Shown here piece after piece: positions 1,573 through 59,715 of a stretch of DNA of 64,000 nucleotides (within the stretch, counting starts at the first letter, position 1; each line of letters starts with the position of its first letter). Source of the stretch: Pseudofrankia inefficax (GTDB lineage: Bacteria; Actinomycetota; Actinomycetes; Frankiales; Frankiaceae); assembly GCF_000166135.1 (NCBI RefSeq), contig NC_014666.1, forward strand, positions 62,001 through 126,000, read 5' to 3'. The position numbers and the translations under genes are program-made. Below the pieces are notes generated by a model, which was not told where the DNA came from, made no database searches, and was given only the letters and a program-made list of their open reading frames with translations.

Positions 1573-2562
1573 TCACCCGGCCGGAGCCGCGAGCCAGGCG
1601 TCGATGCCGGCCAGGGCCGTTGCCTGGACCTCGGCCGGAGCGGCTCCGCCGGTGACGGAGCTGCGGGCGCACGTGGCGAGCAGCTCGTCGTCGAGGCCGA
1701 AGGCGTCTCGGCACAGCTCGTACTCCCGCAGGATGCTCGGCCCGAACAGCAGCGGGTCGTCCGCGTTGATCGAGCAGCGCACGCCGGCGGCCAGCAGCTC
1801 CGGCAGCGGGTGTTCGGCCAGCGACGGGACCACGGAGAGCTGCAGGTTCGAGGTCGGGCAGACGTCCAGCACCGTGCCGCGGGCGGCGAGCACCTCGACC
1901 AGCGCCGGGTCCTCGACGGCACGGATGCCGTGCTGCAGCCGGTCGGCGAGCAGCACGTCGATCGCGCCGCGGACCGAGGCCGGGCCGTCGAGCTCGCCGG
2001 CGTGCGGGGTGGAGAGCAGGCCGGCGTCCTTGGCGTAACGGAACGCGTCGGCGAACGGCTCAGGCGGGTAGCCGTTCTCGTCGTTGTGCAGGCCGAGCGC
2101 GACGACGCCCGCGTCCCGGTTGCGGACGGCGAGCTTCGCGACCTCCACGGCCTGTGCCGGCGTGTCGAAGACCCGGTCGACGGCGGCCATCCAGCGGACG
2201 GTGACGCCGTGGCGCTCGGCGGCCAGCGCGGAGCGGGCCAGCACGGTTTCCCAGGCGGCCTCGGCGGTCCCGAAGACGTCCAGGTACGGGTACGGGTAGA
2301 AGCTCGGCTCCAGGTAGACGACGCCCTCCTGCGCGGCGTCCTCGACGACCTCGTCGACCAGTCGCTCGAAGTCGGCGACCTCGCGGAACATCGGCAGGAT
2401 TCCGCCGATCACGACGCCGAAGCCGCCGAACTCGGTGAACCCGGTTGTGGGCGGCGTCGGTACGCCGTTGCGCGCGGCGAGGTCCGCCAGCGTCGACGGG
2501 CGCATCCCGAGCTCGAAGTGCAGGTGCAGGTGCCCCTTGGGCAGCGCACGCAGGTCACGCAT
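1573..2562 (-). CDS. Adenosine deaminase family protein
   Basis: 329 residues, typical of the zinc-dependent adenosine/adenine deaminase family (amidohydrolase fold), which hydrolyses the 6-amino group of adenosine in purine salvage. Metal and catalytic motifs are visible: HLHFE near residue 13, THAGE-type HAGE near 193, CPTSNLQLS near 250 and SINADDP near 275. The first motif reads HLHFELG rather than the usual HxHLDGS, so substrate preference could differ. Start ATG at 2562 has GAGGAG about 10 bases upstream. A 17-base direct repeat (2574-2590 and 2592-2608) lies in the leader. Divergent from the SPFH operon. Confidence 0.9.
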   Translation of the reverse strand: MRDLRALPKGHLHLHFELGMRPSTLADLAARNGVPTPPTTGFTEFGGFGVVIGGILPMFREVADFERLVDEVVEDAAQEGVVYLEPSFYPYPYLDVFGTAEAAWETVLARSALAAERHGVTVRWMAAVDRVFDTPAQAVEVAKLAVRNRDAGVVALGLHNDENGYPPEPFADAFRYAKDAGLLSTPHAGELDGPASVRGAIDVLLADRLQHGIRAVEDPALVEVLAARGTVLDVCPTSNLQLSVVPSLAEHPLPELLAAGVRCSINADDPLLFGPSILREYELCRDAFGLDDELLATCARSSVTGGAAPAEVQATALAGIDAWLAAPAG

Positions 2563-2573
2563 CGCAGTTCACT

Positions 2574-2608
2574 CCTCACTGGGCCCGCCGCCCTCACTGG
2601 GCCCGCCG
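2574..2608. repeat. Short tandem repeat in the leader of the deaminase gene
   Basis: Two copies of CCTCACTGGGCCCGCCG at 2574-2590 and 2592-2608, period 18 bases. They lie between the deaminase start and the divergent SPFH promoter region. Probably a simple replication-slippage duplication. Confidence 0.6.
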
Positions 2609-2788
2609 CGCCGGCCGGGACGCCGCTCCCGGGGTCGCCAGTTCGGGCGGCGCCCGTTCGGCGCCGCCGCGCGGCGGTCTGCCTGCGACGACGGTACGGA
2701 CGAACCCGACGTCCAGGAAGATCGTCCGTCGGGATTTACCGCCGTGACACACGAGCGGCCGGACCGGCGGTTGGCTCGGGCCCGAAAA

Positions 2789-2806
2789 AGTGATATCACT
2801 TTGATA
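2789..2806. promoter_or_regulatory. Overlapping palindromes, candidate operator of the SPFH/RHH operon
   Basis: AGTGATATCACT (2789-2800) is a perfect 12-base palindrome. TATCA-CTT-TGATA (2794-2806) is a second perfect inverted repeat overlapping it. The site lies about 65-80 bases before the SPFH start in a locally AT-rich patch of otherwise GC-rich DNA. The operon's second gene encodes a ribbon-helix-helix protein, a fold that often binds such half-sites and represses its own operon. That link is inference. Confidence 0.4.
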
Positions 2807-2871
2807 GTGGCGCGGCCGGACTTGCCGGCGGGGCGGTCCCCGCGCCAGCGAGATCGAAGGAGATGGCCGCT

Positions 2872-3861
2872 ATGAGCAGCGGTGACGCGCCGCGGGAGCC
2901 TGAAGGCCCGGTCGGCGCGCAGGTCCGTCCCGAGCTGGATCCCCGAGAGACGATCGACATGCCGGCCCCGCGGGTGGGTGAGCGGGTGATCACCGGGATC
3001 TCCGGCGCCGTGGGGTTCTTCGGAACCCTCGGCGCGCTGCTGGTGGCCGCCGGGCTGATCGTGCTGGCCGGCGTGCTGTTCGCGCACGGCGTGGGAGTCG
3101 GCGGCACCGTGGCGCTCGTGGTCGGGATCCTGCTCTTCCTCGCGAGCCTGATCTGTTTCGGCGGGCTGACGGCCGTCGCCCCGGGCCAGGCGCGGGTCGT
3201 GACCTTCTACGGCCGCTACGTGGGGACGATCCGCCACACCGGCCTGCGCTGGGTGAACCCGCTGACGAGTCGGCGGCGGGTCTCGACCCGGATCCGGAAC
3301 CACGAGACCGGCGTCGCGAAGGTCAACGACGCCGACGGCAACCCGATCGAGATCTCCGCGGTGGTGGTCTGGCAGGTCGCGGACACCGCGCAGGCGGTCT
3401 TCGAGGTGGACGACTTCATCGAGTTCGTCGCGATCCAGACCGAGACCGCCGTGCGGCACGTCGCGACGCGTTACCCGTACGACGCGCACGAGACGGGGCA
3501 GATGTCCCTGCGCGAGAACGCCGACGAGATCACGGCCATGCTCTCGGTGGAGATCGCCGCGCGGGTCGCCTCGGCCGGGGTCCACGTCATCGAGTCGAGG
3601 ATCACCCGGCTGGCGTATGCCCCAGAGATCGCCCAGGCCATGCTGCGCCGCCAGCAGGCGAACGCGGTCGTCGCGGCCCGGGCCCGGATCGTCGAGGGCG
3701 CCGTCGGCATGGTGGAGGCGGCGCTGGCTCGACTGGAAAGCCGGGACGTCGTCGAGCTGGACGAGGAGCGGAAGGCGACGATGGTCAGCAACCTGCTGGT
3801 GGTCCTGTGTAGCGAGCAGTCGACCCAGCCGGTCGTGAACGCCGGGTCGCTCTACCACTAG
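2872..3861 (+). CDS. SPFH/Band 7 domain membrane protein
   Basis: 329 residues. An acidic, Pro-rich N-terminus (1-40) is followed by two hydrophobic segments (about 46-70 and 77-99) and an SPFH/prohibitin-type domain (about 101-290), seen in the [19 protein letters not shown] entry and the later [18 protein letters not shown] segment. Such proteins assemble into membrane-bound oligomers; their role in actinobacteria is unclear. I chose ATG 2872 rather than the in-frame ATG at 2863 because GAAGGAG (2856-2862) abuts 2863 but is ideally spaced, 9 bases, from 2872. The stop is only 8 bases before the ribbon-helix-helix gene, so they form one operon. Confidence 0.88.
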
Positions 3862-3869
3862 TCCGGCCC

Positions 3870-4217
3870 ATGACGGAACGTAAGAAGATCCTGCTGCGGC
3901 TTGATCCGGCGGTGCACGACGCACTGGCCCGGTGGGCCGGCGACGAGCTGCGCAGCACGAACGCCCAGATCGAGTTCCTGCTGCGCGGCGCGCTGGCCTC
4001 CGCCGGCCGGCTCCCGTCCGCCGTCGGACGGATGCCGCGGCGCGGCCGCCCGCCCGCCGCCGAGGCCGACGGCGCACGGGAACCCGACCCAGTCCTCGCA
4101 CCCGACCCAGTCCTCGGAGCTGACGACACCGAGGCGCCGGACGAGATCACGGACGAGGCGCCCGACGACGGCGCCGGCGAGACCCCGCCCGGCCGCGAGC
4201 CCACGCCGGATGCCTGA
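3870..4217 (+). CDS. Ribbon-helix-helix (HicB/Arc-like) DNA-binding protein
   Basis: 115 residues. Residues 1-45 read like an Arc/HicB-type ribbon-helix-helix: a beta strand KKILLRLD, then two helices with LARWAGDELRSTNAQIEFLLR. The rest is a disordered acidic tail rich in Asp, Glu and Pro with a short repeat (PDPVLAPDPVLGADD). It starts 8 bases after the SPFH stop. No toxin partner is visible, so despite its resemblance to HicB antitoxins it is more likely an autoregulator or an accessory factor of the SPFH protein. The palindromes at 2789-2806 are a candidate target. Confidence 0.8.
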   Translation: MTERKKILLRLDPAVHDALARWAGDELRSTNAQIEFLLRGALASAGRLPSAVGRMPRRGRPPAAEADGAREPDPVLAPDPVLGADDTEAPDEITDEAPDDGAGETPPGREPTPDA

Positions 4218-46434: not shown

Positions 46435-47181
46435 TCAGCCGCCGAGTTCGGGCTGGGAGGCGCAGGACGAGAGCACGGTGCGCATGGCGTCGGCCTCGGC
46501 CTGGGTCACCCAGAGGTGATAGCGGGCCTTGATGCCGATCTGCCGCGCGACGTAGGTGCACCGGTAACCCACGGCCGGCGGGAGCCATTCACTGGCGTCG
46601 CTGTCGCTCTTCTTGACGTTCGTCGGTCCGTCGACGGCGAGGAGGTTCTCGGGGTCGTTGGCTATCGCCTCGCGCTCGGACTCGGGGAAGGCGTAGGCAC
46701 CGGTGCGCCAGGCGTCGCCCAGTGGGACGACGTGGTCGATCTGCACCGCCGCGGAGTCCTTGCCGCGGTTGAACCGGATGATCCTGTTCGTGTACGGGTC
46801 GTTCAGCTCGCCGGTCAGGACGATGCAGTTGTCGGTCGTGCGAACCGTCACCGAGTGCAGGTCCCGGTGCAGGACGTCGTTGCGGGTGTCGCAGCCGTTG
46901 TGGTCGACGTCCTTCCAGGCTGTGCCGAACGCGTCACGGTCGTACTTCGGCGACGTGGCGAGCGGCGCGATCTTCAGCGTGCCCAGCGCCGCGAGCGCGG
47001 AGCCGTCGGCGCCGACGTCCGAACCGTTCGCCGCGAACCCGCTCGGCAGCGCACCCGACGGACTGGCCGTCGAGGTGTCGCTGAGCGCCGTCGAAACCCC
47101 GTTGCACCCCGATGCCAGCACCGCCACTGTCGCTGCCGCTGCCACGACTGCGGCGAGCCGCCCCGCGACCCACGTGCCCAT
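46435..47181 (-). CDS. Secreted HNH-family nuclease lipoprotein
   Basis: 248 residues. N-terminal hydrophobic signal ends in a lipobox-like VLASGC, so it is probably anchored outside the membrane. The nuclease domain belongs to the DUF1524/HNH type: catalytic IDHVVPLGDAW followed by FPESEREAIANDPENLLAVDG and TNVKKSDSD, with extra Cys residues (NGCDTRND, TDNC, YRCTY, SSCAS) that could form disulfides. Extracellular nucleases of this kind may scavenge DNA. ATG 47181 follows a GGTGGGGG site; GTG 47199 is an alternative. Divergent from the TetR gene. Confidence 0.88.
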   Translation of the reverse strand: MGTWVAGRLAAVVAAAATVAVLASGCNGVSTALSDTSTASPSGALPSGFAANGSDVGADGSALAALGTLKIAPLATSPKYDRDAFGTAWKDVDHNGCDTRNDVLHRDLHSVTVRTTDNCIVLTGELNDPYTNRIIRFNRGKDSAAVQIDHVVPLGDAWRTGAYAFPESEREAIANDPENLLAVDGPTNVKKSDSDASEWLPPAVGYRCTYVARQIGIKARYHLWVTQAEADAMRTVLSSCASQPELGG

Positions 47182-47445
47182 GTCCCCCACCTGTCCCACG
47201 TCCGTTCGTTAGCGGCGAGTCTGCCGGAGCCCAGGCCGATACGAGCGGTTTTGTCGCTCGGTGATGGCGGCCCGGCGCCCGATCGTGCCACAGATGGGCG
47301 CATATCGGGTTTTCGACCGGCCGGTACGTGCGCCGGCCGCGTTGACTCGCAAGGACCATCGAGCGAATGGCGCGCCGACAGCTCATCGGGGGCGGTGCTA
47401 TCAGAACGGATGATTGGGCTTATAGGGGCCCTTTACAGTTGCCGC

Positions 47446-49936: not shown

Positions 49937-51706
49937 GTGACGGAGGACGTGGCGGGCGCGGAGCGGCGCCCGGCCTCCGGGCTGTCGGGTGACCCGCTCG
50001 CGGCGCACGACCCCCGCCGGGTCGGGCCCTACCCGTTGCTGAGCCGCCTGGGCACCGGAGGCATGGGGACGGTCTACCTGGGCCGGGGCGAGCGCGGCCG
50101 GTTGGTGGCGGTGAAGGTCATCCGGCCGGACCTGGCCGCGGACGAGGAGTTCCGCCGCCGGTTCCGGCAGGAGGTGGCGGCCGCGCGCCGCGTGGCGCCG
50201 TTCTGCACGGCCGAGGTGCTCGACGCCGATCCGGACGCGGCCGCGCCCTACCTGGTGACCGAGTTCATCGACGGCCTGCGCCTGGACCAGGCGATCGCCC
50301 GGGGCGGCCCGCTCACGCCGTCGACCCTGACCGGGCTCGCGGTCGGCGTCGCGACCGCGCTCACCGCGATCCACCGCGCCGGGCTGGTGCATCGCGACCT
50401 CAAGCCGAGCAACGTGCTGCTGTCGCTGTCCGGGCCGCGGGTGATCGACTTCGGGATCGCCCAGGCGGTGGCCCACGGCTCCACGGCCAAGCCGACGTCC
50501 TGGGGGTTCGGCTCCGCCGGCTGGATGGCGCCCGAGCAGATCAACGGGCAGCCGATCGGGCCGGCGGCGGACATCTTCACGTGGGGCATCCTCATGGCCT
50601 ACGCCGGGACCGGGCAGCACCCGTTCGGCGAGGGCAAGGACATCGACCTCGCCTACCGGACGGTCTCGGCCGCGCCGGACCTGACCGGCCTGGTTCCTCC
50701 GCTGCGAGACCTGATCGACGCCGCGCTGGCCAAGGACCCAGCCGCCCGGCCGACCGCCCGCGACCTGCTCCTGGCCCTCATCGAACGCGGTCACACCGGC
50801 GAGCCGGGAGTGCCTCCCGGCGAGGAGTTGCTCGGGCTGGCCGCCGACCGGGCCGAGGTGATGGCGAGCCCGGCGGTGGTCGCCCTGACCGGGCCGGATC
50901 CCTCCAGCGGGTTGCCGCGCACGCGGGTGGCACCTCCCGGCTACGGCGCCGCGACCGCGCAGGTCGAGGGCGCGGGGCAGCCCGGCGGCCCCGGCTACGA
51001 CCCCCGGCAGGCGTCGGCGCGGTACCAGCGGCCCGGCGAGGCGCCCGGCGGCATCGTGCCACCCCGGCGGCCGTCGACCCCGGCGGCCGGAGTGCGCCCC
51101 GGCGGTGCGGGCTACCCGGGCCAGGCCCGGTCCGGTATGCCACTGCGCGCGGGCGGCCGCAGGCCCGGCGGCAGCAGGCTCGGGCTGTGGCTGACGATCA
51201 TTTTGATCATTCTGGGCGCACTGGCGATCACCCTGATCGCGCTCAACCCGGGCGACTCGTCCGAGCCGGGCAGCTCCGTCCCGCCGTCGAGGACCCCGAC
51301 GCCGACGGCGACCGGGCCGAACAGCCGCGTCTACACCGACGGCTCGCTCCAGTTCCAGATCCAGAGCCTGCGCTGCGGTGTGCAGAAGATCGGCATCATC
51401 CCGCGCAAACCGGACGGCCAGTACTGCCTCGTCAAGATCAACGTTCGGAACGTCGGAAGCTCGTCGCGGACGCTGGTCGCCAACCAGCAGTTCATGTACG
51501 ACCAGAACGGCGGCCGGCACGAGGCCTACTCGGCGCTGGAAACCCGGCTGTACTACCCGTTCGACTCGCTGTGGAACAAGATCCAGCCGAATGCCCAGGT
51601 CAGTGGAACGCTGATCTTCGACATTCCGGTCGACACCGGCCCGACGCGCCTGGAACTGCACGACGGCCTGATCGGCCAGGGTGCCCAGATCCCGGTCGAG
51701 GGCTGA
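49937..51706 (+). CDS. Ser/Thr protein kinase with DUF4352-like extracellular domain
   Basis: 589 residues. Kinase domain (about 30-285): LLSRLGTGGMGTVYLG loop, K60, HRDLKPSNVLLS, DFGIAQAV, and WMAPEQINGQ. A Pro/Gly/Arg-rich linker, one membrane helix (about 417-437: LWLTIILIILGALAITLIAL), then an outer immunoglobulin-like domain of about 125 residues with two Cys and the DUF4352 pattern (FQIQSLRCG, YCLVKINVRNVG, LVANQQFMYDQNGGR). GTG 49937. Unlike PknB it has no PASTA repeats, so it senses something else. No substrate gene is adjacent. Confidence 0.88.
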   Translation: MTEDVAGAERRPASGLSGDPLAAHDPRRVGPYPLLSRLGTGGMGTVYLGRGERGRLVAVKVIRPDLAADEEFRRRFRQEVAAARRVAPFCTAEVLDADPDAAAPYLVTEFIDGLRLDQAIARGGPLTPSTLTGLAVGVATALTAIHRAGLVHRDLKPSNVLLSLSGPRVIDFGIAQAVAHGSTAKPTSWGFGSAGWMAPEQINGQPIGPAADIFTWGILMAYAGTGQHPFGEGKDIDLAYRTVSAAPDLTGLVPPLRDLIDAALAKDPAARPTARDLLLALIERGHTGEPGVPPGEELLGLAADRAEVMASPAVVALTGPDPSSGLPRTRVAPPGYGAATAQVEGAGQPGGPGYDPRQASARYQRPGEAPGGIVPPRRPSTPAAGVRPGGAGYPGQARSGMPLRAGGRRPGGSRLGLWLTIILIILGALAITLIALNPGDSSEPGSSVPPSRTPTPTATGPNSRVYTDGSLQFQIQSLRCGVQKIGIIPRKPDGQYCLVKINVRNVGSSSRTLVANQQFMYDQNGGRHEAYSALETRLYYPFDSLWNKIQPNAQVSGTLIFDIPVDTGPTRLELHDGLIGQGAQIPVEG

Positions 51707-51787: not shown

Positions 51788-53215
51788 GTGTCAGCTCGGA
51801 TGAGTTCCGCTCCGCTTGTCGTCGGCTTCGACCTGGATCTCACGCTGTTGGATGCGCGACGGGGCATCGTCGCGACCTACGCGGAGATCGCCGCCCGCAC
51901 CGGCGTCCCGATCGACGGCGAGCTGGCCGCGAGCCGGCTGGGCCCGCCGCTGGAGCAGGAGCTCGCGAACTGGTTCCCGGCCGACGAGGTAGCCGGCGCC
52001 GCGACGCTCTACCGCGAGCTGTACGTCGACCACGCCGTGCCGGTGTCGGAGGCGATGCCGGGGGCGGCGCGGGCCGTCGAGGCGGTCCGGCGGGAAGGCG
52101 GCCGGGTGGTCGTGGTGACGGCGAAGGCCGAATGGCTCGCCCGCGCCAGCCTGGCGGCGATCGGGATCGAGCCGGACGTCGTCGTCGGCTGGCTCTGGGC
52201 CGCGGCCAAGGGGGACGCGATCCGCGAGCACGGCGTGCACATCTACGTCGGCGACCACGAGGGCGACATGCGCGGCGCGCGGGCCGGCGGGGCGCTGTCC
52301 GTCGGGCTGACCACCGGGTCGCACGACGCGGACGCCCTGTCGGCCGCCGGCGCGGACGTCGTGCTCGGCGGGCTCGCGGACTTCCCCGACTGGCTCGCGG
52401 GCGCGGTCCTCGACCGGCGGCTGGCGGCGCTGAGCACCCGGCTGACCGAGCTGGGCTCGGTGCTCGTCGCCTTCTCCGGCGGCGCCGACTCGGCCTTCCT
52501 GCTCGCCTGGGCGGCCAGGACGCTCGGGCCCGGCGCGGTCGTCGCCGCGACCGCGGTCTCCCCGTCCCTGCCGGCCGCCGAGCTCGACGCCGCCCGCGCG
52601 TTCGTCGCGGCGCTCGGCGTGCGCCACGTGCTGCCCAGCACCGACGAGCAGTCCCGGCCGGGCTACCTCGCCAACGGCGCGGACCGCTGCTACTTCTGCA
52701 AGGCGGAGCTGACCGAGACGCTCGGCCCGCTGGCCGCCGACCTGGGCCTGGCCCACGTCGTCACCGGGACGAACGCGGACGACGCCGTCGCCGGGTTCCG
52801 TCCCGGCATCCGGGCCGCCGCCGAGCGGGGCGCGGCCACCCCCCTGCTCGACGCCGGGCTGACCAAGCGGCAGGTCCGGGCGGCCTCCCGCCGGCTTGGC
52901 CTGGTCACCGCCGACAAGCCGGCCGCCGCCTGTCTGGCCAGCCGGATCGCCTACGGCATCGAGGTGACGCCCAGTCGGCTCGCCCGGGTCGAGCACGCCG
53001 AGCAGGCACTGCGGCTGGCGTTGGCCGACGCGGAGCTGCCCTGCCGGGACCTGCGCGTGCGTGACCTGGGTGACCGGGCCCGGATCGAGGTCGACGCCGA
53101 GCTCGTGCCGACGCTCACCGCCCGGCCCGATCTGACCTCCGCCGTCACCGGCTTCGACCTCATCGAGGTGGATCCGCGTGGCTTCCGGTCGGGTTCCATG
53201 AACGAGCTGCTCTAA
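51788..53215 (+). CDS. larE: HAD hydrolase fused to LarE sulfur transferase
   Basis: 475 residues, two domains. Residues 1 to about 210: HAD phosphatase-like fold with D15 and D17 in GFDLDLTLLD, a VVVVTAKAEW motif II region and YVGDHEGDMRGAR as motif IV. Residues about 215-475: LarE-type PP-loop enzyme with SGGADS at 230-235, RCYFCKAEL (C301, C304), TGTNADD, and AACLASRIAYG with C382 at the position of the sacrificial cysteine. LarE inserts sulfur into the nickel-pincer cofactor of LarA-type racemases. No larA, larB or larC is nearby. Start is GTG 51788 or ATG 51800. LarE is normally a stand-alone protein of about 270 residues. Confidence 0.88.
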   Translation: MSARMSSAPLVVGFDLDLTLLDARRGIVATYAEIAARTGVPIDGELAASRLGPPLEQELANWFPADEVAGAATLYRELYVDHAVPVSEAMPGAARAVEAVRREGGRVVVVTAKAEWLARASLAAIGIEPDVVVGWLWAAAKGDAIREHGVHIYVGDHEGDMRGARAGGALSVGLTTGSHDADALSAAGADVVLGGLADFPDWLAGAVLDRRLAALSTRLTELGSVLVAFSGGADSAFLLAWAARTLGPGAVVAATAVSPSLPAAELDAARAFVAALGVRHVLPSTDEQSRPGYLANGADRCYFCKAELTETLGPLAADLGLAHVVTGTNADDAVAGFRPGIRAAAERGAATPLLDAGLTKRQVRAASRRLGLVTADKPAAACLASRIAYGIEVTPSRLARVEHAEQALRLALADAELPCRDLRVRDLGDRARIEVDAELVPTLTARPDLTSAVTGFDLIEVDPRGFRSGSMNELL

Positions 53216-53542
53216 GCCCTGGACCTGGGTGAACACCGGGCTTCGCCGGGGCTCGCCTGGCGCGGAGCCTGTGTGGTCCGCCCCTGCGGCGGTGGAATCC
53301 TGCGCCTGACGGGCGCCGGCCGGATAGCCTGAGGACCGTCGTTTGTCGGTCGCACCAGCCTGCTTTCCAGGCCGGCGTGACCGGCGTGAGGGCGCGGCCA
53401 GCCAGACATGGTCGCGCCTTCTTTGCCGCCAGGGATCCCACCGATTGGCGGCGGAGTGGACGACCGGGAGCCGGATCGACGGGCGCCCGACGGTGGGGGA
53501 GAAAGCGTCGTAGCTCCCGTCGCGCTAAGAACGAGGTCGCCC
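53216..53542. other. Leader region of the cold-shock gene, nothing recognised
   Basis: 327 bases between larE and the cold-shock gene on the same strand. Cold-shock genes often have long structured leaders, but I cannot identify a specific element. Confidence 0.4.
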
Positions 53543-53938
53543 GTGCCCACCGGCAAGGTCAAGTGGTATGACGTCGACAAGGGGTTCGGCTTCCTCTCCC
53601 GCGACGACGGCGGGGATGTCTTCGTCCACAAGGCCGCGTTGCCGGCCGGGGTCGAGAAGCTGCGCGCGGGCGACCGGGTCGAGTTCGGCGTCGCAGCCGG
53701 CCGCAAGGGCGACCAGGCGCTCTCCCTGCGCATCCTGGCCGAGCCGCCCTCCGTGGCGAAGGCCGTCAGAGAAGCCGCCCGGCGCAGCCCCGACGAGCTG
53801 CACGCCATGGTCGAGGACATGATCAAGGTGCTGGATGACGTCCAGCGTGACCTTCGCCGTGGCCGCTACCCCGACCGTCGCATCGCCCAGCGGGTGGCCA
53901 AGGTCGTCCACGCGGTGGCCAGCGAGCTCGAGGCCTAA
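53543..53938 (+). CDS. Cold-shock domain protein with C-terminal extension
   Basis: 131 residues. Cold-shock domain (1-68): [16 protein letters not shown], then [10 protein letters not shown], the RNP1- and RNP2-like strands that bind single-stranded RNA or DNA. The C-terminal 60 residues are helical and charged ([19 protein letters not shown]), as in the longer actinobacterial type of csp. GTG 53543 follows GAGG. It converges with mqnD, 13 bases between stops; the same pairing occurs in Streptomyces. Confidence 0.93.
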
Positions 53939-53951
53939 GCGCTCGTCAGGG

Positions 53952-54857
53952 CTAGGGCTGGCGGAGCGGGCTGGGGAGCGGGGGGACCAGGTTCTCGGCG
54001 GCGGCCCGGGCCAGGAGCTCCTCGGCCGCGGCGTAGCCCTCGTCGCCGAGGTCGAGGCTGAAGTCGTTGACGTACAGGTCGATGTGCGCCTGGACGACCT
54101 CGGGCGCCAGCTCCTGGGAGTGTTCGAGCACCCAGGCCGCGGAGGCCGCCGGGTTGGCGAAGGCGGCCGCCACGCTGGCCCGCACGGCCGCGGCCAGATC
54201 GCCGGACTCCGCGGGCAGGTCCCGGCGGGCCAGGATCGCGCCGAGCGGGATCGGCAGGCCGGTCGCGCCCTCCCACCAGTCGCCCAGGTCGGCGACGGAC
54301 ACCAGCCCGTAGGACGGGTAGGTGAACCGGGACTCGTGGATCACCAGCCCGGCGTCGTACCGGCCGGCCTGGACTGCCGGCATGATCTTCTCGAATGGCA
54401 GCACGTCGATCGTCGCGACGTCGATGCCCGCCGCCCACAGCCGGAACAGCAGGTAGGCGGTGGTCCGGGTCCCGGGGATCGCCACCCGGGCCCCCCGCAG
54501 CACCGCCGCGTCTCCCTGGGCGCCCGCGGCGGTGGGACCGCCGGCGGACATGAGTACCAGGGGGCCGCAGCCGCGTCCCAGCGCTCCGCCGGCCGGCAGC
54601 AGCCGGTAGCCGTCGAGCAACCACGGCAGGGCCGCGTACGAGACCTTGACCAGGTCGTCCAGGCCGTCGGCCGCACGGGCGTTGAGCACGTCGATGTCGG
54701 CGAACGTGACCGACACGGGCGGTACCCCGGGCACCAGGCCGTGCGCGAGCGCGTGGAAGGCGAACGTGTCGTTCGGGCAGGGCGAAATCGCCAGCGTGAG
54801 GCCCGTCCGCTCGCGCTGGTCCGCCTCGCTGGCCGCCGTCACCTGGGACATCGTCAT
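53952..54857 (-). CDS. mqnD: 1,4-dihydroxy-6-naphthoate synthase (MqnD)
   Basis: 301 residues. Periplasmic-binding-protein-like fold used as an enzyme in the futalosine route to menaquinone: it converts cyclic dehypoxanthinyl futalosine to 1,4-dihydroxy-6-naphthoate. Family patterns: ISPCPNDTFAFHALAHG, FADIDVLNARA, KVSYAALPWLL, the GRGCGPLV loop, and LVIHESRFTYPSYGL. ATG 54857 has no strong binding site, but the gene is 45 bases after mqnB in the same direction. Confidence 0.94.
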   Translation of the reverse strand: MTMSQVTAASEADQRERTGLTLAISPCPNDTFAFHALAHGLVPGVPPVSVTFADIDVLNARAADGLDDLVKVSYAALPWLLDGYRLLPAGGALGRGCGPLVLMSAGGPTAAGAQGDAAVLRGARVAIPGTRTTAYLLFRLWAAGIDVATIDVLPFEKIMPAVQAGRYDAGLVIHESRFTYPSYGLVSVADLGDWWEGATGLPIPLGAILARRDLPAESGDLAAAVRASVAAAFANPAASAAWVLEHSQELAPEVVQAHIDLYVNDFSLDLGDEGYAAAEELLARAAAENLVPPLPSPLRQP

Positions 54858-54902: not shown

Positions 54903-55847
54903 TCAGCGCCCGACCGGTGGGCGTGACCCGTCAGCCGCCGAAGCGTCCGCCGCGGCCGCCAGCAGGCCGTCCGGGTGGGCGACGAGGGCGCCGGCCGCGG
55001 TGCGCAGACTCGCCAGCGCGGCCGGAAGGTTCCAGCTGGCGCGGTCACGCCGGCCGACCTGGTTGCTGATGGCGCGGATCTCGCCGGCCGGGACGCCGAA
55101 GGCCGCGGCGGCGGTGCCGACCGCGTAGCCCTCCATGCCCTCGGCGACCGGGTCGAGCCGGGCGGTCAGGGTCGCCGCGCGCAGCTCGGTGCCGGTGACG
55201 GTGGCGACGGACAGCACGGGCCCGGTGACCACCCGGCGGCCCGTGATGCCGACGACGGTCGCCAGCCGCTCGACCAGGCCGGACTTCGGGATGATCGTCG
55301 ACGAGCCGAGGTCCAGGTCGTCGAGGGTGAGGAACTTCCCGTCCGCGGAGGAGCTCGTCGCGCGCGGGAGCGGCGGCGCGCCGGTGCTGTGGAAGCCGAG
55401 GCTGCGGTCCATCTCGTGAACCTTGCCGGCCGGCTCGCGCAGGTCCTCCAGGCCGGACTCGGCGCCCAGGTCGGCCGCCACCAGCCGGGACGCGACCGCC
55501 AGGTCGCCGACCTCGGCCCAGCCGCGGAACCCGCCGGCGACGCCCATCGAAAGCACCAGGGTGAACGGGTCGCCGGTCGCCGCGGCGACCGCGAGCGCCA
55601 CGGCGGTACCCGCCGCGGCCGCCGGTCCGCCGGTGCCGGCCGCCAGGACCGTCACCGGGCCGCGGCGGCGGCCGACGTACGGGCCGAGCGTCGAGGTGGT
55701 CAGCAGTTGGCGGTCCCAGTCGGGGGAGACGGGCGCGCTCGGCACCTCGGAGGAAGGTCCGCGGGAGCGAGACCAGCTACCCATCAGGCCCGCGCACACC
55801 GCGTCCGCCTCAGCCTGGACGGCGGTGACGATCAGGGTGCGGCTCAT
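54903..55847 (-). CDS. mqnB: Futalosine hydrolase (MqnB)
   Basis: 314 residues. Nucleosidase fold: LIVTAVQAEADAV at the start, VLAAGTGGPAAAAGTAVAL, LVLSMGVAGGF, and near the end EGMEGYAVGTAAAAFGVP, which includes the catalytic Glu-Gly-Met region. It releases hypoxanthine from futalosine, the step before MqnC. Two insertions rich in Ser/Pro (about 25-45 and 165-185) make it longer than most homologues. ATG 55847 is at the conserved first strand although no binding site is visible. Forms an operon with mqnD. Confidence 0.93.
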   Translation of the reverse strand: MSRTLIVTAVQAEADAVCAGLMGSWSRSRGPSSEVPSAPVSPDWDRQLLTTSTLGPYVGRRRGPVTVLAAGTGGPAAAAGTAVALAVAAATGDPFTLVLSMGVAGGFRGWAEVGDLAVASRLVAADLGAESGLEDLREPAGKVHEMDRSLGFHSTGAPPLPRATSSSADGKFLTLDDLDLGSSTIIPKSGLVERLATVVGITGRRVVTGPVLSVATVTGTELRAATLTARLDPVAEGMEGYAVGTAAAAFGVPAGEIRAISNQVGRRDRASWNLPAALASLRTAAGALVAHPDGLLAAAADASAADGSRPPVGR

Positions 55848-56216
55848 CGGCGTGTCTGAGGCATGGTCGGTGTGGATCTCCGTGCGCCATCGTCGGGAAC
55901 AGACAGACCCTCCGGGAAAGACCACCGTGTCGGACGGCGCGGTGACAGCACGAGGTTCCCGAGGAGGGCAAACCGGACTTTGTTGACGGACCTTAGCACT
56001 GCCGTCGACCGAGCGTGGTTCCCGCGTCGGGCGGTGACGATGAGTGGCCGGCCTGGTCACCCGTCGGGTGACCAGGGTGCGGCGACGCCCGGTGTCGGTT
56101 TCCTGTGCCGGGGTTCTCGCTCGGGAGCGCGGGCCCCGGCGGGGCATTCGCCCAGCACGACCGGCTGGCCGGTGACGCCGTCGCGCCAGTCAGCCCCGCC
56201 GGTCGCGCTGAATCGG
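55848..56216. other. Intergenic region, nothing recognised
   Basis: 369 bases between mqnB and DUF3027, both on the minus strand. It should contain the mqnB promoter. No gene, hairpin or operator was convincing. Confidence 0.45.
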
Positions 56217-57155
56217 TCAGGCGTGGCCGTACGGCTCCGGGCGCCCCACGGCGGGGTGGCCGGCGTGCGCGGGCTCGGGCGCGGTGCCGCCCGCCGTCGC
56301 CCCGACCAGTTCGACGTCGGTCGGCGTGAGATCTGACGGGTCCTCGTCGAAGGGGACCGACTCCGGGTGCGCCGACGGGGCCACCAGCGCCTCGGAGTGG
56401 GCACCGCAGCCGTGGTCGATCGAGGTCACCCGGGCGTCGTCGGGCGCCAGCTCGTTGGCGCACACCCCGAACAGCCGGCCGAGGGCACCGGCCAGCCGGA
56501 CGTGGAACCCGCAGGTCAGGCACGTCGCCGGGGCGACCTTCGCCACATGGGCGTCGGGGCCGGACTCGCCGGCGTACCAACGGGCCGAGGCCTCCTCCCG
56601 GCCCACCGCGGAGAGCACCCGCGGGCGGCCAAGCCCCAGCTCCAGGAACGCGTCGGTGTCGACGAACTCCTCGACGTCGGCCTGGCGCAGCGCCAGCCGC
56701 GGGTCGTCGACGGCGGTGGGCAGCAGGTCGCCGACGCCGACGTCGCCCGGGCGAAGCCGCTGCGACCACGGCACCCACGCCGGCGCGAGCAGCGCGTCGT
56801 CGCCGGGCGTCAGCACGACGTCGTCGACGGTGACCTTGCGTACCCGCGGCGCGCGGGTGGTCACGACCGTCCACACCCAGCCCCGGTAGGCGCGGGCGAG
56901 CGAGGCGAACCGGTGCAGCACCAGCCGGTCGCCCTCGGCCTCGACGCCCAGGTGCTCGCCGACGGCTCCCTCGTCCCCGGCCTCCTCGACGGCGGCGGCG
57001 CGGGCCACGTCGACGGCCGCGGCGCAGACCGGGTCCGGGCCGGTGGCCCGGGACCTCGTCCCCCGCGGGGTGGCCGGGTCCTCCTGGTCGTCCTCGTCGT
57101 CACCGTCGGCGGGTGGCGCGACCTCGGCCGTGGGGTCGGCCAGTGGCTCGATCAC
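56217..57155 (-). CDS. DUF3027 family protein
   Basis: 312 residues from GTG 57155. DUF3027 patterns: VCAAAVDVARAAAVEEAG, YRGWVWTVVTTRAPR, LLAPAWVPWSQRLRPGDVG, and a zinc-like Cys group (CLTCGFHVRLAGALG then FGVCANELAPDD), ending with CGAHSEALV and an acidic tail. Function unknown; the family sits near mqnB/mqnD in actinobacteria. The N-terminus is acidic (DGDDEDDQED). An in-phase repeat shows that the real protein was probably longer and is broken by a 1-base frameshift at 57174-57177. Confidence 0.82.
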   Translation of the reverse strand: MIEPLADPTAEVAPPADGDDEDDQEDPATPRGTRSRATGPDPVCAAAVDVARAAAVEEAGDEGAVGEHLGVEAEGDRLVLHRFASLARAYRGWVWTVVTTRAPRVRKVTVDDVVLTPGDDALLAPAWVPWSQRLRPGDVGVGDLLPTAVDDPRLALRQADVEEFVDTDAFLELGLGRPRVLSAVGREEASARWYAGESGPDAHVAKVAPATCLTCGFHVRLAGALGRLFGVCANELAPDDARVTSIDHGCGAHSEALVAPSAHPESVPFDEDPSDLTPTDVELVGATAGGTAPEPAHAGHPAVGRPEPYGHA

Positions 57156-57173
57156 GGCCGTCGTCTCGGGTTC

Positions 57174-57524
57174 GAGGCTCGGGTTCGGGGCGGGCCTCGG
57201 GTTCGGGGCGGGCCGCCGGTTCGGCCGCCGCGTCGATGGACGGTTCGGCGGGCGGCTCGGATGCGGGCGATTCGGGCGCCGTCGGGGCGGCGAGGGCCAC
57301 CTCGTCGGCGGGTGCCGCGGCCGGCGGCTCGGCGAGAGCAGCCGGGATCGCCGGCTCAGGCGGGTCGCCTGGAGTCGGGGCGGCGGTAGTTGTCAGGTCG
57401 GCGGCGGGTTCCGTCGGTGCCTCGGTCGGGCCGTCGGGCTGGGAGCCCGCCGCCGCGTCCTGGGCCTCGGCCGGCTCGGCCGGAGTAGCGCTCACCGCGT
57501 CGTCAGCGCCCGTTGCATCGTCCA
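57174..57524 (-). pseudogene. Out-of-frame N-terminal extension of DUF3027
   Basis: From GTG 57524 the minus strand codes an acidic, Pro/Ala-rich stretch (VDDATGADDAVSATPAEP ... ARPEPEARPEPE) of about 115 residues with codon use typical of a real gene. It runs into an Arg-rich nonsense end at 57100 because its frame differs from DUF3027. The nonamer CTCGGGTTC (plus strand) repeats at 57165, 57178 and 57196: steps of 18 and 13 bases, so the last step breaks the frame. Removing one base, or adding two, within 57174-57177 joins the two frames. Sequencing error, real frameshift or recoding cannot be told apart. Confidence 0.6.
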
Positions 57525-57651
57525 CGAGACCATTCTCGCCCAGGCTCGACAGGTACGCCCGGCGTGGTCGTGGCCGCGCGGCTGTTCGGCGAGCACACTC
57601 GGCAGGGTGGGTACTCGCGGGTTCGGCCGGCCGCTGCGCCGCCGTGCGGTC

Positions 57652-59715
57652 GTGGCGGAGCCCGGCGCGGCTACGGAGAGTCCGACCGGGACCGTCGGCA
57701 GGGTCCGCGCGAGTCTTGGAACTGGCGTTGGACGCATCCGGGCGACTACTAGGCGTGATGGCGCCGACCGGTCGGGGCTCGCCGCGCTGCTCGACCTTTC
57801 CGTGATCAACGCCGCCGGCGACGCGCTGGTGACCGTCGCCCTGGCCGGCTCGCTGTTCTTCTCGGTGCCGACCGGCCAGGCCCGGTCCAAGGTCGCGCTC
57901 TACCTGCTGATCACGATGGTCCCGTTCGTGCTGCTGGCCCCGGTGATCGGGCCGTTGCTCGACCGGGTGGCCCATGGCCGGCGCACGGCGCTGGCGGCGC
58001 TCTGCCTTGGCCGGTGCCTGCTGGCCTGGCAACTCGCGGCCCAGCTCTCCGGCCTGCAGGTTTACCCACTCGCGCTGGGCCTGCTGATGCTCTCCCGGGC
58101 GTTCGGGATCGCGCGCAGCGCCGTGATCCCTCGGGTGGCGCCACCCGAGCTGACGTTGGTCAAGGTCAACTCGCGGATGTCGATGGTCAACATCGTCGCG
58201 AGCTCCGTGATCGCGCCCATCGGGCTCGGGATCGCGCACATTCCGTATGTCGGCTACGCGTGGGTGTTGCGGCTGTGCGCGCTGCTCTATCTGGTCGGCG
58301 TGCTGTTGGCGATCAACCTGCCGAAGCGGGTCGACTCGAACGCCGGCGAGCGGGCGCTGCGGGACATCGTGGCCGGTGCCACCGGCCCGCGAGCCGCAGC
58401 CGCGCCCGGCCAGCCCGTTGCGGCCGGGCTGCAGTACCAGGCTGTCGCGGGCACGGTCGTGGACGCGGAGAGCCGGGGTCGGCGGCTCGCCGGCAAGCAC
58501 GCCCGCTGGCACGCGTTGGTCCGAGCGGTGCTCGGCGCGTCGCCGGTGGCGTTGCGCTCCACTCTGGTGTTGCGCGCGATCGTGGGGTTTCTCACGTTCT
58601 TCCTTGCGTTCCTGTTGCGCACCGAGGGCGGGACCAACCTCTGGCTGGGCGCGCTGGCCGCGTCCGCCGCGGTCGGCAGCGGCCTGGGCGTGGTGATCGG
58701 CGGACGGCTGGGCCGGCGCCGGCCGGAGCGCATCCTGACGCTGGCGCTGCTGCTGACGACCGTCGGCTGCCTGCTGGCCGCCATCGACTACGCGAAGTTC
58801 CCGGCGTTGTTCGCCGCCCTGCTGGCGATGCTGGCCGCGGCGATGGCCAAGCTCGCCCTGGACGCGATCATCCAGCGCGACACGGCCGACGACGTGCGCA
58901 ACTCGGCGTTCGCCCGCTCGGAGACGGTGTTGCAGCTGGGCTGGGTGGCCGGCGGAGCGCTCGGGCTGATCGAGATGCCCGGCCAGCTCGGATTCCTGAT
59001 CGCCGGGCTGGTCCCCGCGGCCGCGCTGTTCCCGCAGGCTCGGGAGATCCGTCGCGCCCGCGGTGCCGCGGACCGCGCGGAGCGGCTCCGGGCGTCGGGC
59101 GGTGACCCGGCGGCCTGGCCCGGGGCGGCGACCGGTACCTGGGTGCAACCGGACGGCACGACCGTCCTGCCGGTGATGATGCCGGCACCGGATCGCCCGT
59201 TCCGACCCGTCGCCGGTCAGGCCCCGGACGACGCGACGCGTCCCTGGCGAGCCGCACCCGAGCCGCCGATGCCGGCTGGTGGTCCCGTGGTTCCCGGCTA
59301 TCCGAGTGTCAGCCCGCCCCCAGCGGCGCCACCGACCCTCTGGTACCCGGGTTCCGGGGAGTACCAGGGCTCCGGCGAGGACCAGGCGAATGGCGGGTAT
59401 CCGGGGTCCGGCGGGTATGCGGGGTCTGGCGAGTACCCGGGGAATGGTGGGTATCCGGGACCCGGTGGGTACCCGGAAGTTGGGGCTTACCCGGCGCCTG
59501 GCGACCAGACGGCGGGACAGCCGGTGGGCCCGTGGGTGCGGGCGCCCGGCCCGGTCGACGAGACCACGACCCGGCCCGCCCGTCGGCGCCCGTGGGGACG
59601 CGCCCGCCGAGCCGACTCCGAGGCGGACCCGGACACGACGCTCCCGCTCGGCTCCGACCGCCGCTTCCCCGACGTACCCCCGCCCCGCGACACCCCCAAC
59701 CAGTCGGCGGACTAG
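57652..59715 (+). CDS. MFS transporter with Gly/Tyr-repeat cytosolic tail
   Basis: 687 residues. About 12 hydrophobic segments between 55 and 470 with RSAVIPRVAPPELTLVKVN and GVVIGGRLGRRRPERILTL, as in MFS proteins of the actinobacterial type with a long middle loop. The last 170 residues are disordered; about 570-620 repeats GYPGSG/GEYPGNG units. GTG 57652 is used; the frame is open further up but overlaps the DUF3027 region. Substrate unknown. Divergent from DUF3027. Confidence 0.85.
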   Translation: MAEPGAATESPTGTVGRVRASLGTGVGRIRATTRRDGADRSGLAALLDLSVINAAGDALVTVALAGSLFFSVPTGQARSKVALYLLITMVPFVLLAPVIGPLLDRVAHGRRTALAALCLGRCLLAWQLAAQLSGLQVYPLALGLLMLSRAFGIARSAVIPRVAPPELTLVKVNSRMSMVNIVASSVIAPIGLGIAHIPYVGYAWVLRLCALLYLVGVLLAINLPKRVDSNAGERALRDIVAGATGPRAAAAPGQPVAAGLQYQAVAGTVVDAESRGRRLAGKHARWHALVRAVLGASPVALRSTLVLRAIVGFLTFFLAFLLRTEGGTNLWLGALAASAAVGSGLGVVIGGRLGRRRPERILTLALLLTTVGCLLAAIDYAKFPALFAALLAMLAAAMAKLALDAIIQRDTADDVRNSAFARSETVLQLGWVAGGALGLIEMPGQLGFLIAGLVPAAALFPQAREIRRARGAADRAERLRASGGDPAAWPGAATGTWVQPDGTTVLPVMMPAPDRPFRPVAGQAPDDATRPWRAAPEPPMPAGGPVVPGYPSVSPPPAAPPTLWYPGSGEYQGSGEDQANGGYPGSGGYAGSGEYPGNGGYPGPGGYPEVGAYPAPGDQTAGQPVGPWVRAPGPVDETTTRPARRRPWGRARRADSEADPDTTLPLGSDRRFPDVPPPRDTPNQSAD

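Follow-up and report, generated by a model that had tools for sequence, protein, structure and literature searches.

The locus described here lies in the window, by which we mean the whole 64-kb stretch of DNA that was analyzed (positions 62001-126000 of a genome that consists of one contig of 8,815,781 bases), and its central feature is a single gene in which an HAD hydrolase domain is followed by LarE (Table 1). In the open-frame reading, the frame is uninterrupted over its 475 codons from the GTG start to the stop codon, with an in-frame ATG at 51800 as a candidate alternative start. The first-pass annotation had placed HAD and LarE in one intact frame, and it was right to do so; the residues D15, D17, GDHEGD at 155-160, SGGADS, C301 and C304 of RCYFC, and C382 are all present. 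The HAD half matches Pfam PF12710 at 46.5 bits (cut-off 27) and PF13419 at 39.1 bits (cut-off 23.8), and it contains every residue of the superfamily motif test (D15, D17, T19, T111 at the position that may be Thr or Ser, K141, and G155-D160), which we take to fill the roles of the DxDxT motif, the motif II Thr/Ser, the motif III Lys, and the GDxxxD motif. The LarE half passes the curated threshold of NCBIfam TIGR00268 (267.5 bits compared with a cut-off of 150, over residues 213-472) and has the SGGxDS PP-loop (S230-S235). A scan for promoters and terminators found none.

Table 1. Features of the HAD-LarE locus and the partner genes of the same genome. Coordinates are those of the window, except for larC and larB, which are given on the genome contig (G000:C1).
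Feature	Coordinates	Strand	Details
HAD-LarE fusion gene	51788..53215	+	475 codons, start GTG 51788
HAD hydrolase domain	51809..52399	+	residues 8-204; D15, D17, T19, T111 (T or S), K113, K141, GDHxxD 155-160
Junction helix	52373..52453	+	residues 196-222; predicted continuous from final HAD helix to first LarE helix
LarE domain	52409..53212	+	residues 208-475; PP-loop SGGADS 230-235
CxxC-C triad codons (C301, C304, C382)	52688..52933	+	predicted [4Fe-4S] ligands
Cold-shock-domain gene	53408..53938	+	PF00313, 62 bits; common next neighbour of fused and solo HAD
VitK2_biosynth family gene	53952..54857	-	PF02621, 231.9 bits
PNP_UDP_1 family gene	54903..56147	-	PF01048, 60.5 bits
DUF3027 protein gene	56217..57155	-	PF11228, 265.1 bits; in many related loci
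MFS transporter within open frame	57043..59715	+	PF07690, 60.5 bits; in many related loci
larC	G000:C1 134307-135869	-	NCBIfam LarC1 190.6 bits vs 90, LarC2 118.7 bits vs 50
larB	G000:C1 135866-136780	-	NCBIfam LarB 233.5 bits vs 175

An AlphaFold2 model of the fusion, built from 55 aligned rows (mean pLDDT 94.1, pTM 0.87), predicts one continuous helix across the junction, and a comparable junction is present in the 16 fused rows printed in the alignment. Among solved structures, Foldseek lists only LarE entries in the top 50 for the model (best E 1.8e-18), and the solved sequence nearest to the HAD half by phmmer is that of Protein Tyrosine Kinase A (PtkA, PDB 6f2x, 50 bits), a low similarity; we take this to be the M. 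tuberculosis protein. The sequence and the model together suggest that the HAD cap is of the C1 type. Among the downstream genes, the VitK2_biosynth neighbor is presumably MqnD and the PNP_UDP_1 neighbor MqnB-like. Upstream of the fusion lie genes for a GmrSD_C-type protein (46435-47199, minus strand) and for a protein kinase-domain protein with a C-terminal DUF4352 (49937-51706, plus strand).

The fusion of an intact HAD domain with a full-length LarE is real, and an open frame arising by chance from high GC content can be dismissed, because full-length relatives with 55-95% identity occur in many genomes. In samples of 35 genomes of the order, 393 of the class, and 296 of the phylum, the same domain order was found at full length in at least 44 of the class genomes, belonging to eight families (f1, f9, f14, f20, f22, f26, f28, and f40), which rules out a chance or misassembled frame and also the merger confined to one assembly that the first-pass annotation had considered. 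In the order sample the full-length fusion is present in all eight genomes of the window's genus (its own genome included), in all six of g6, and in three of the five of g7, and one further genome, G015, has one incomplete match. LarE alone is found in two g7 genomes and in the single genome of g3, and neither half was found in the single g5 genome, which is 63% complete. The 13 genomes of g2, which we infer to be Frankia proper (genus and family names of the G-numbered genomes derive from matching named loci), include 11 with a solo HAD; neither LarE nor LarB passes the cut-off in any of the 13, and the sole LarC match is a 46-position fragment in one of them. Of the nine g2 solo HAD genes that were read, one (L111) is interrupted by an in-frame stop near codon 62. 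The named loci, taken as the best 80 of 185 relatives, add Nocardioides and an Acidothermales bin to the carriers of the fusion. In the phylum sample (E ≤ 1e-60) it was seen in the window's own genome only, and the eight genomes from other classes that matched had LarE alone. No description of an HAD-LarE fusion was found in the open-access PMC literature, where absence is weak evidence; the parts are ordinary, the combination is unusual, and it is conserved.

The genomes that have only one of the halves make it possible to ask which half goes with the other genes of nickel-pincer nucleotide (NPN) synthesis. Of the 207 class-sample genomes with a match, 142 were assigned a state (the unassigned ones are G015 and G091, with incomplete matches, and 63 others), with at most four first-look candidates scored per genome, the best places among the matches listed, one match at E ≤ 1e-30 defining "HAD-only," and E ≤ 1e-20 defining the presence of LarC. 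Among these 142 genomes, LarC is present in 40 of 44 with the fusion, in all three with adjacent genes, and in both of those that have the two halves at separate places. It is present in 31 of 32 LarE-only genomes, a set that includes two (G095 and G286) with a second match that could be an HAD elsewhere and two (G166 and G362) in which the matches extend somewhat upstream of LarE, and in none of 61 HAD-only genomes. LarE, then, goes with LarC, and the HAD does not. Where LarC is missing from genomes with the fusion (G034, G042, G114, and G126), the assemblies are drafts of 230-850 contigs and 77-98% completeness; G091, whose fused match is incomplete, likewise has no LarC. In the order sample, LarE is over the cut-off in 21 of 35 genomes, and of these 20 have LarC and 19 have an over-cut-off LarB.

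The HAD half keeps its catalytic residues throughout the aligned rows, so the loss of conservation in homologues that the first-pass annotation had named as a refuting result did not materialize. D15, D17, and T19 are present in 47 of 47 fused rows (two of which are repeats, L023 being the same as L165 and L130 the same as L170), in 3 of 3 adjacent-gene rows, and in 24 of 25 solo rows, where the exception is the stop-broken L111; K113, K141, G155, D156, H157, and D160 are present in all 75 HAD rows. Position 111 is Thr in 92% of the fused and adjacent rows, and in the solo rows it is Thr in 21 and Ser in 3. In a comparison of 50 fused-or-adjacent with 24 solo rows, 45 positions are at least 90% conserved with the identical residue in both sets, the outermost of them thinly covered, and no position is fixed to differing residues. 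Another 21 positions are at least 90% conserved in the solo rows and variable in the fused rows, several of them in the cap (e.g. E58, W62, and P64), and seven are conserved in the fused rows only. We tentatively take these differences as lineage spread (Nocardioides). An HAD visibly re-tuned to LarE is rejected, since none of its positions is fixed differently from the solo HADs, yet the 21 solo-conserved positions do vary in the fused ones.

The genomic setting is also common to the two forms. A cold-shock gene stands beside the HAD in nine of nine g2 solo loci examined, in three of three named Streptomyces loci, and in 10 of 13 other solo loci (within 1 kb), and it lies downstream of LarE in 26 of 27 named fused loci; the usual neighbors of fused and solo HADs alike are this gene, often the two menaquinone-type genes, the MFS transporter, and DUF3027. 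The solo actinobacterial HAD by the cold-shock gene (Streptomyces, g2) thus has the 45 conserved positions and the usual neighbors in common with the fusion, but it is unjoined to LarE and occurs in HAD-only genomes without LarC. Neither of two candidate identities for the HAD half is acceptable, as the curated cut-offs are missed by far, with 45 bits compared with 180 for the phosphoglycolate phosphatase (PGP) model TIGR01449 and 21.5 bits compared with 218 for the PpaX pyrophosphatase model NF009804.

It is most likely, in our view, that the HAD half does a job unrelated to NPN, and the gene is probably best read as an operon-neighborhood fusion of two enzymes that work independently. The HAD half would be a small phosphatase with a C1-type cap and a housekeeping substrate unconnected with NPN, and the halves would have been joined because an old operon, with the order HAD, larE, cold-shock gene, places larE immediately after the HAD. 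Where stop and start overlap by the four bases GTGA, a small indel would suffice for the fusion, and the product would gain joint expression and a rigid helical connection but no common reaction. The first-pass annotation had raised, among other options, the idea that the HAD acts on a LarE intermediate, which is not supported, given the retention of the same HAD where LarE has no match and the contrast in LarC between HAD-only and LarE-only genomes. Several considerations nevertheless weigh against independence. The fusion is common and keeps both active sites, which would be expected also of a useful link; four of the 44 fused genomes, and G091, are without LarC; the fused HADs are not simply identical to the solo ones, given the 21 positions conserved in solo rows only and the seven in fused rows only; and the fact that the HAD is used elsewhere does not prove that its fused form has no part in NPN synthesis.

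The alternative with the most to be said for it, though we consider it unlikely, is that the HAD helps LarE, either by clearing the PPi (in a PpaX-like manner) or the AMP of the two adenylylations and so pulling an unfavorable reaction or by dephosphorylating off-path precursors. LarE does produce PPi and AMP according to the excerpted text of PMC11796402, fusion and adjacent overlapping genes are the usual signs of a functional link, the PpaX- and PGP-type models give weak matches, and some cap positions vary in the fused and not in the solo rows. However, those matches fall short of the equivalog cut-offs, no position is fixed differently in fused and solo HADs, and LarC is absent from all of the HAD-only genomes while present in 31 of the 32 LarE-only ones. 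A more committed form of partnership, in which the HAD hydrolyzes PPi or a pyridinium nucleotide produced by LarE, a single bifunctional actinobacterial enzyme thereby drives multi-turnover sulfur insertion, and a housekeeping phosphatase was recruited with its invariant residues unchanged, also seems to us improbable. We find it rather doubtful that the HAD controls NPN supply by hydrolyzing the nucleotide phosphate on NPN or on a precursor, in an overflow or repair function, with common pyridine mononucleotides as its substrates in genomes that have no LarE; an HAD resembling a nucleotidase would be of use whether or not LarE is present, so this would fit the retention of the HAD in LarE-free genomes, but nothing observed speaks for it directly, and the recurring neighbors that were sought and found are the cold-shock, menaquinone-type, MFS, and DUF3027 genes.

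The LarE half, which in the independent-enzymes reading would carry the whole of the connection to NPN, keeps C301, C304, and C382 in 119 of 119 aligned LarE rows and so has the CxxC motif and the distant Cys. A comparator is the LarE of Thermotoga maritima, which is described in the excerpted text of PMC9283937 as holding an oxygen-labile [4Fe-4S] cluster by Cys92, Cys95, and Cys172, and the same text finds the CxxC-C motif in most LarE homologues. The fusion has in common with this enzyme the SGGxDS PP-loop and the cysteine triad, and its genome also encodes LarB and LarC, which we count as a further likeness between the systems, but it adds the N-terminal HAD domain. The Lactobacillus plantarum LarE (sacrificial-cysteine type; PDB 5udq and others) has the same fold as the LarE half, with the Foldseek E value given above, and C382 aligns with the sole Cys of its chain, Cys176 in the excerpt of PMC11796402; in contrast, there is no Cys at the places aligned with C301 and C304, and the HAD domain is again extra. 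The window's LarE is therefore not to be given a sacrificial-cysteine mechanism by default, and the earlier description of it as donating its cysteine sulfur suits the L. plantarum type; as a three-cysteine enzyme by sequence, it is expected to use a [4Fe-4S] cluster. In the portion of PMC11796402 cited here, LarB converts NaAD and CO2 to P2CMN and AMP, and LarE adenylylates, with release of PPi and AMP, and inserts sulfur. By analogy with its class, the LarE half would adenylylate the P2CMN carboxylates, with PPi and then AMP leaving, and would insert sulfur taken from a non-core sulfide bound to the [4Fe-4S] cluster. LarB before and LarC after this step would complete NPN, which would then be used by a LarAH14/15/16-type protein of the same genome.

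The larB and larC genes overlap by 4 bases and lie ~19 kb downstream of the fusion, 8.3 kb past the window edge, and there is no LarC, Lar_N, or over-cut-off LarB match inside the 64-kb window. The initial impression that the fusion stands without larA, larB, or larC nearby was thus a window-edge effect; among family relatives, one or both of larB and larC are often found on the contig that carries LarE, ~8-26 kb away from it. Two LarA-like (Lar_N) genes are located at 1.73 and 4.49 Mb of the genome, of which the latter is a LarAH14/15/16 member (903.8 bits, cut-off 740) and the former is below every NCBIfam cut-off listed. A second LarA-like protein, at L003 1294-2658 (454 amino acids), has as its best NCBIfam match a putative hexonate epimerase, at 152.7 bits with the cut-off of 500 missed. 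As far as the excerpt of PMC7583248 goes, the LarAH14 of a Frankia sp. was purified and none of seven activities was detected, and LarA groups 12, 13, and 16 are without the catalytic and NPN-binding residues; the excerpt of PMC12611868 has groups 14 and 15 without an equivalent of His174.

In our alignment, a GGHKS...HHHNSH stretch is kept in three LarBCE-positive genomes (L002, L177, and L178), and the six g2 relatives that were read (L171-L176, among nine with a Lar_N match) are without GGHKS and most of the later His residues and score 477-624 bits compared with the cut-off of 740. By our own reading of the alignment, the Lys of GGHKS would be equivalent to K184 of LarA. The g2 proteins are likely to be NPN-free descendants of NPN enzymes, and the pattern fits a scenario in which the ability to make the cofactor and the ability to use it were lost together, in support of an NPN role for the LarE half. 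A Lar_N match is found in nine of the 13 g2 genomes despite no over-cut-off LarB or LarE and no full LarC. In the g2 genome G012, which has no over-cut-off lar genes, a frame at L179 (~1970-3982, minus strand) has a decayed larB fragment adjoining a LarE fragment, on a different contig from the HAD gene of that genome. That the LarE half serves another sulfur-containing nucleotide might be suggested by the lack of adjoining larB and larC in the window, but this is very unlikely and we reject it, with larB, larC, and a LarAH member in the same genome, co-occurrence of LarE, LarB, and LarC, and GGHKS lost in the six relatives read that are without LarBCE.

Indications of how the halves came together are given by g17, where two separate genes encode HAD and LarE and share a GTGA overlap in three of three loci (L131-L133), and a small indel at this overlap would fuse them with a nearly identical junction. 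The existence of two genes in one genus could also suggest that the fusion is an assembly or reading error with a missed stop, an idea refuted by the identical continuous frame in at least 44 genomes of at least eight families and to which we attach practically no probability. In the HAD tree, which has three long branches flagged, a single clade of fused HADs is rejected (AU p 3.6e-38), and there are seven state changes, four of them forced by starred branches. The LarE tree, calculated on 89 of 119 rows (the 30 left out are mostly Geodermatophilaceae LarE-only rows) and with unsettled bootstrap, gives 11 state changes for the fused LarEs, four of them forced by starred branches, and one of the 11 may be false because L034, labeled LarE-only, begins at a contig end and is possibly a cut fusion. 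In Frankiaceae each half occurs without the other, nested among fused rows: the g2 solo HADs are within the Frankiaceae clade (99/96), though inner branches are weak (84/51 and 94/80), and the LarE-only L033 and L059 are nested in a fused Protofrankia-type clade (100/98). A search for remnants of the lost halves at half-only loci (E ≤ 0.01) left no convincing trace. It returned LarE pieces at L113 (E 0.008) and L117 (E 0.004), which overlap the HAD region, and HAD-like matches at L052 (0.004), L146 (2e-5), and L148 (0.002), all more than 2 kb from LarE, and these weak matches are taken as chance or other HADs. Because the trees are unrooted, half-loss and repeated fusion are indistinguishable in them, and their topology is compatible with several fusions, several losses, or a mixture of the two.

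Gene fusions are often taken as proof of a functional link, and here the fusion apparently marks only an old operon neighborhood, a distinction that can be drawn since natural half-only genomes allow each half to be judged separately. Caution is thus needed that neither the solo HAD relatives nor the fusion itself be filed under NPN synthesis by domain order alone. For the LarE half, the cysteine triad would assign LarE to the cluster-dependent class in many Actinomycetes.
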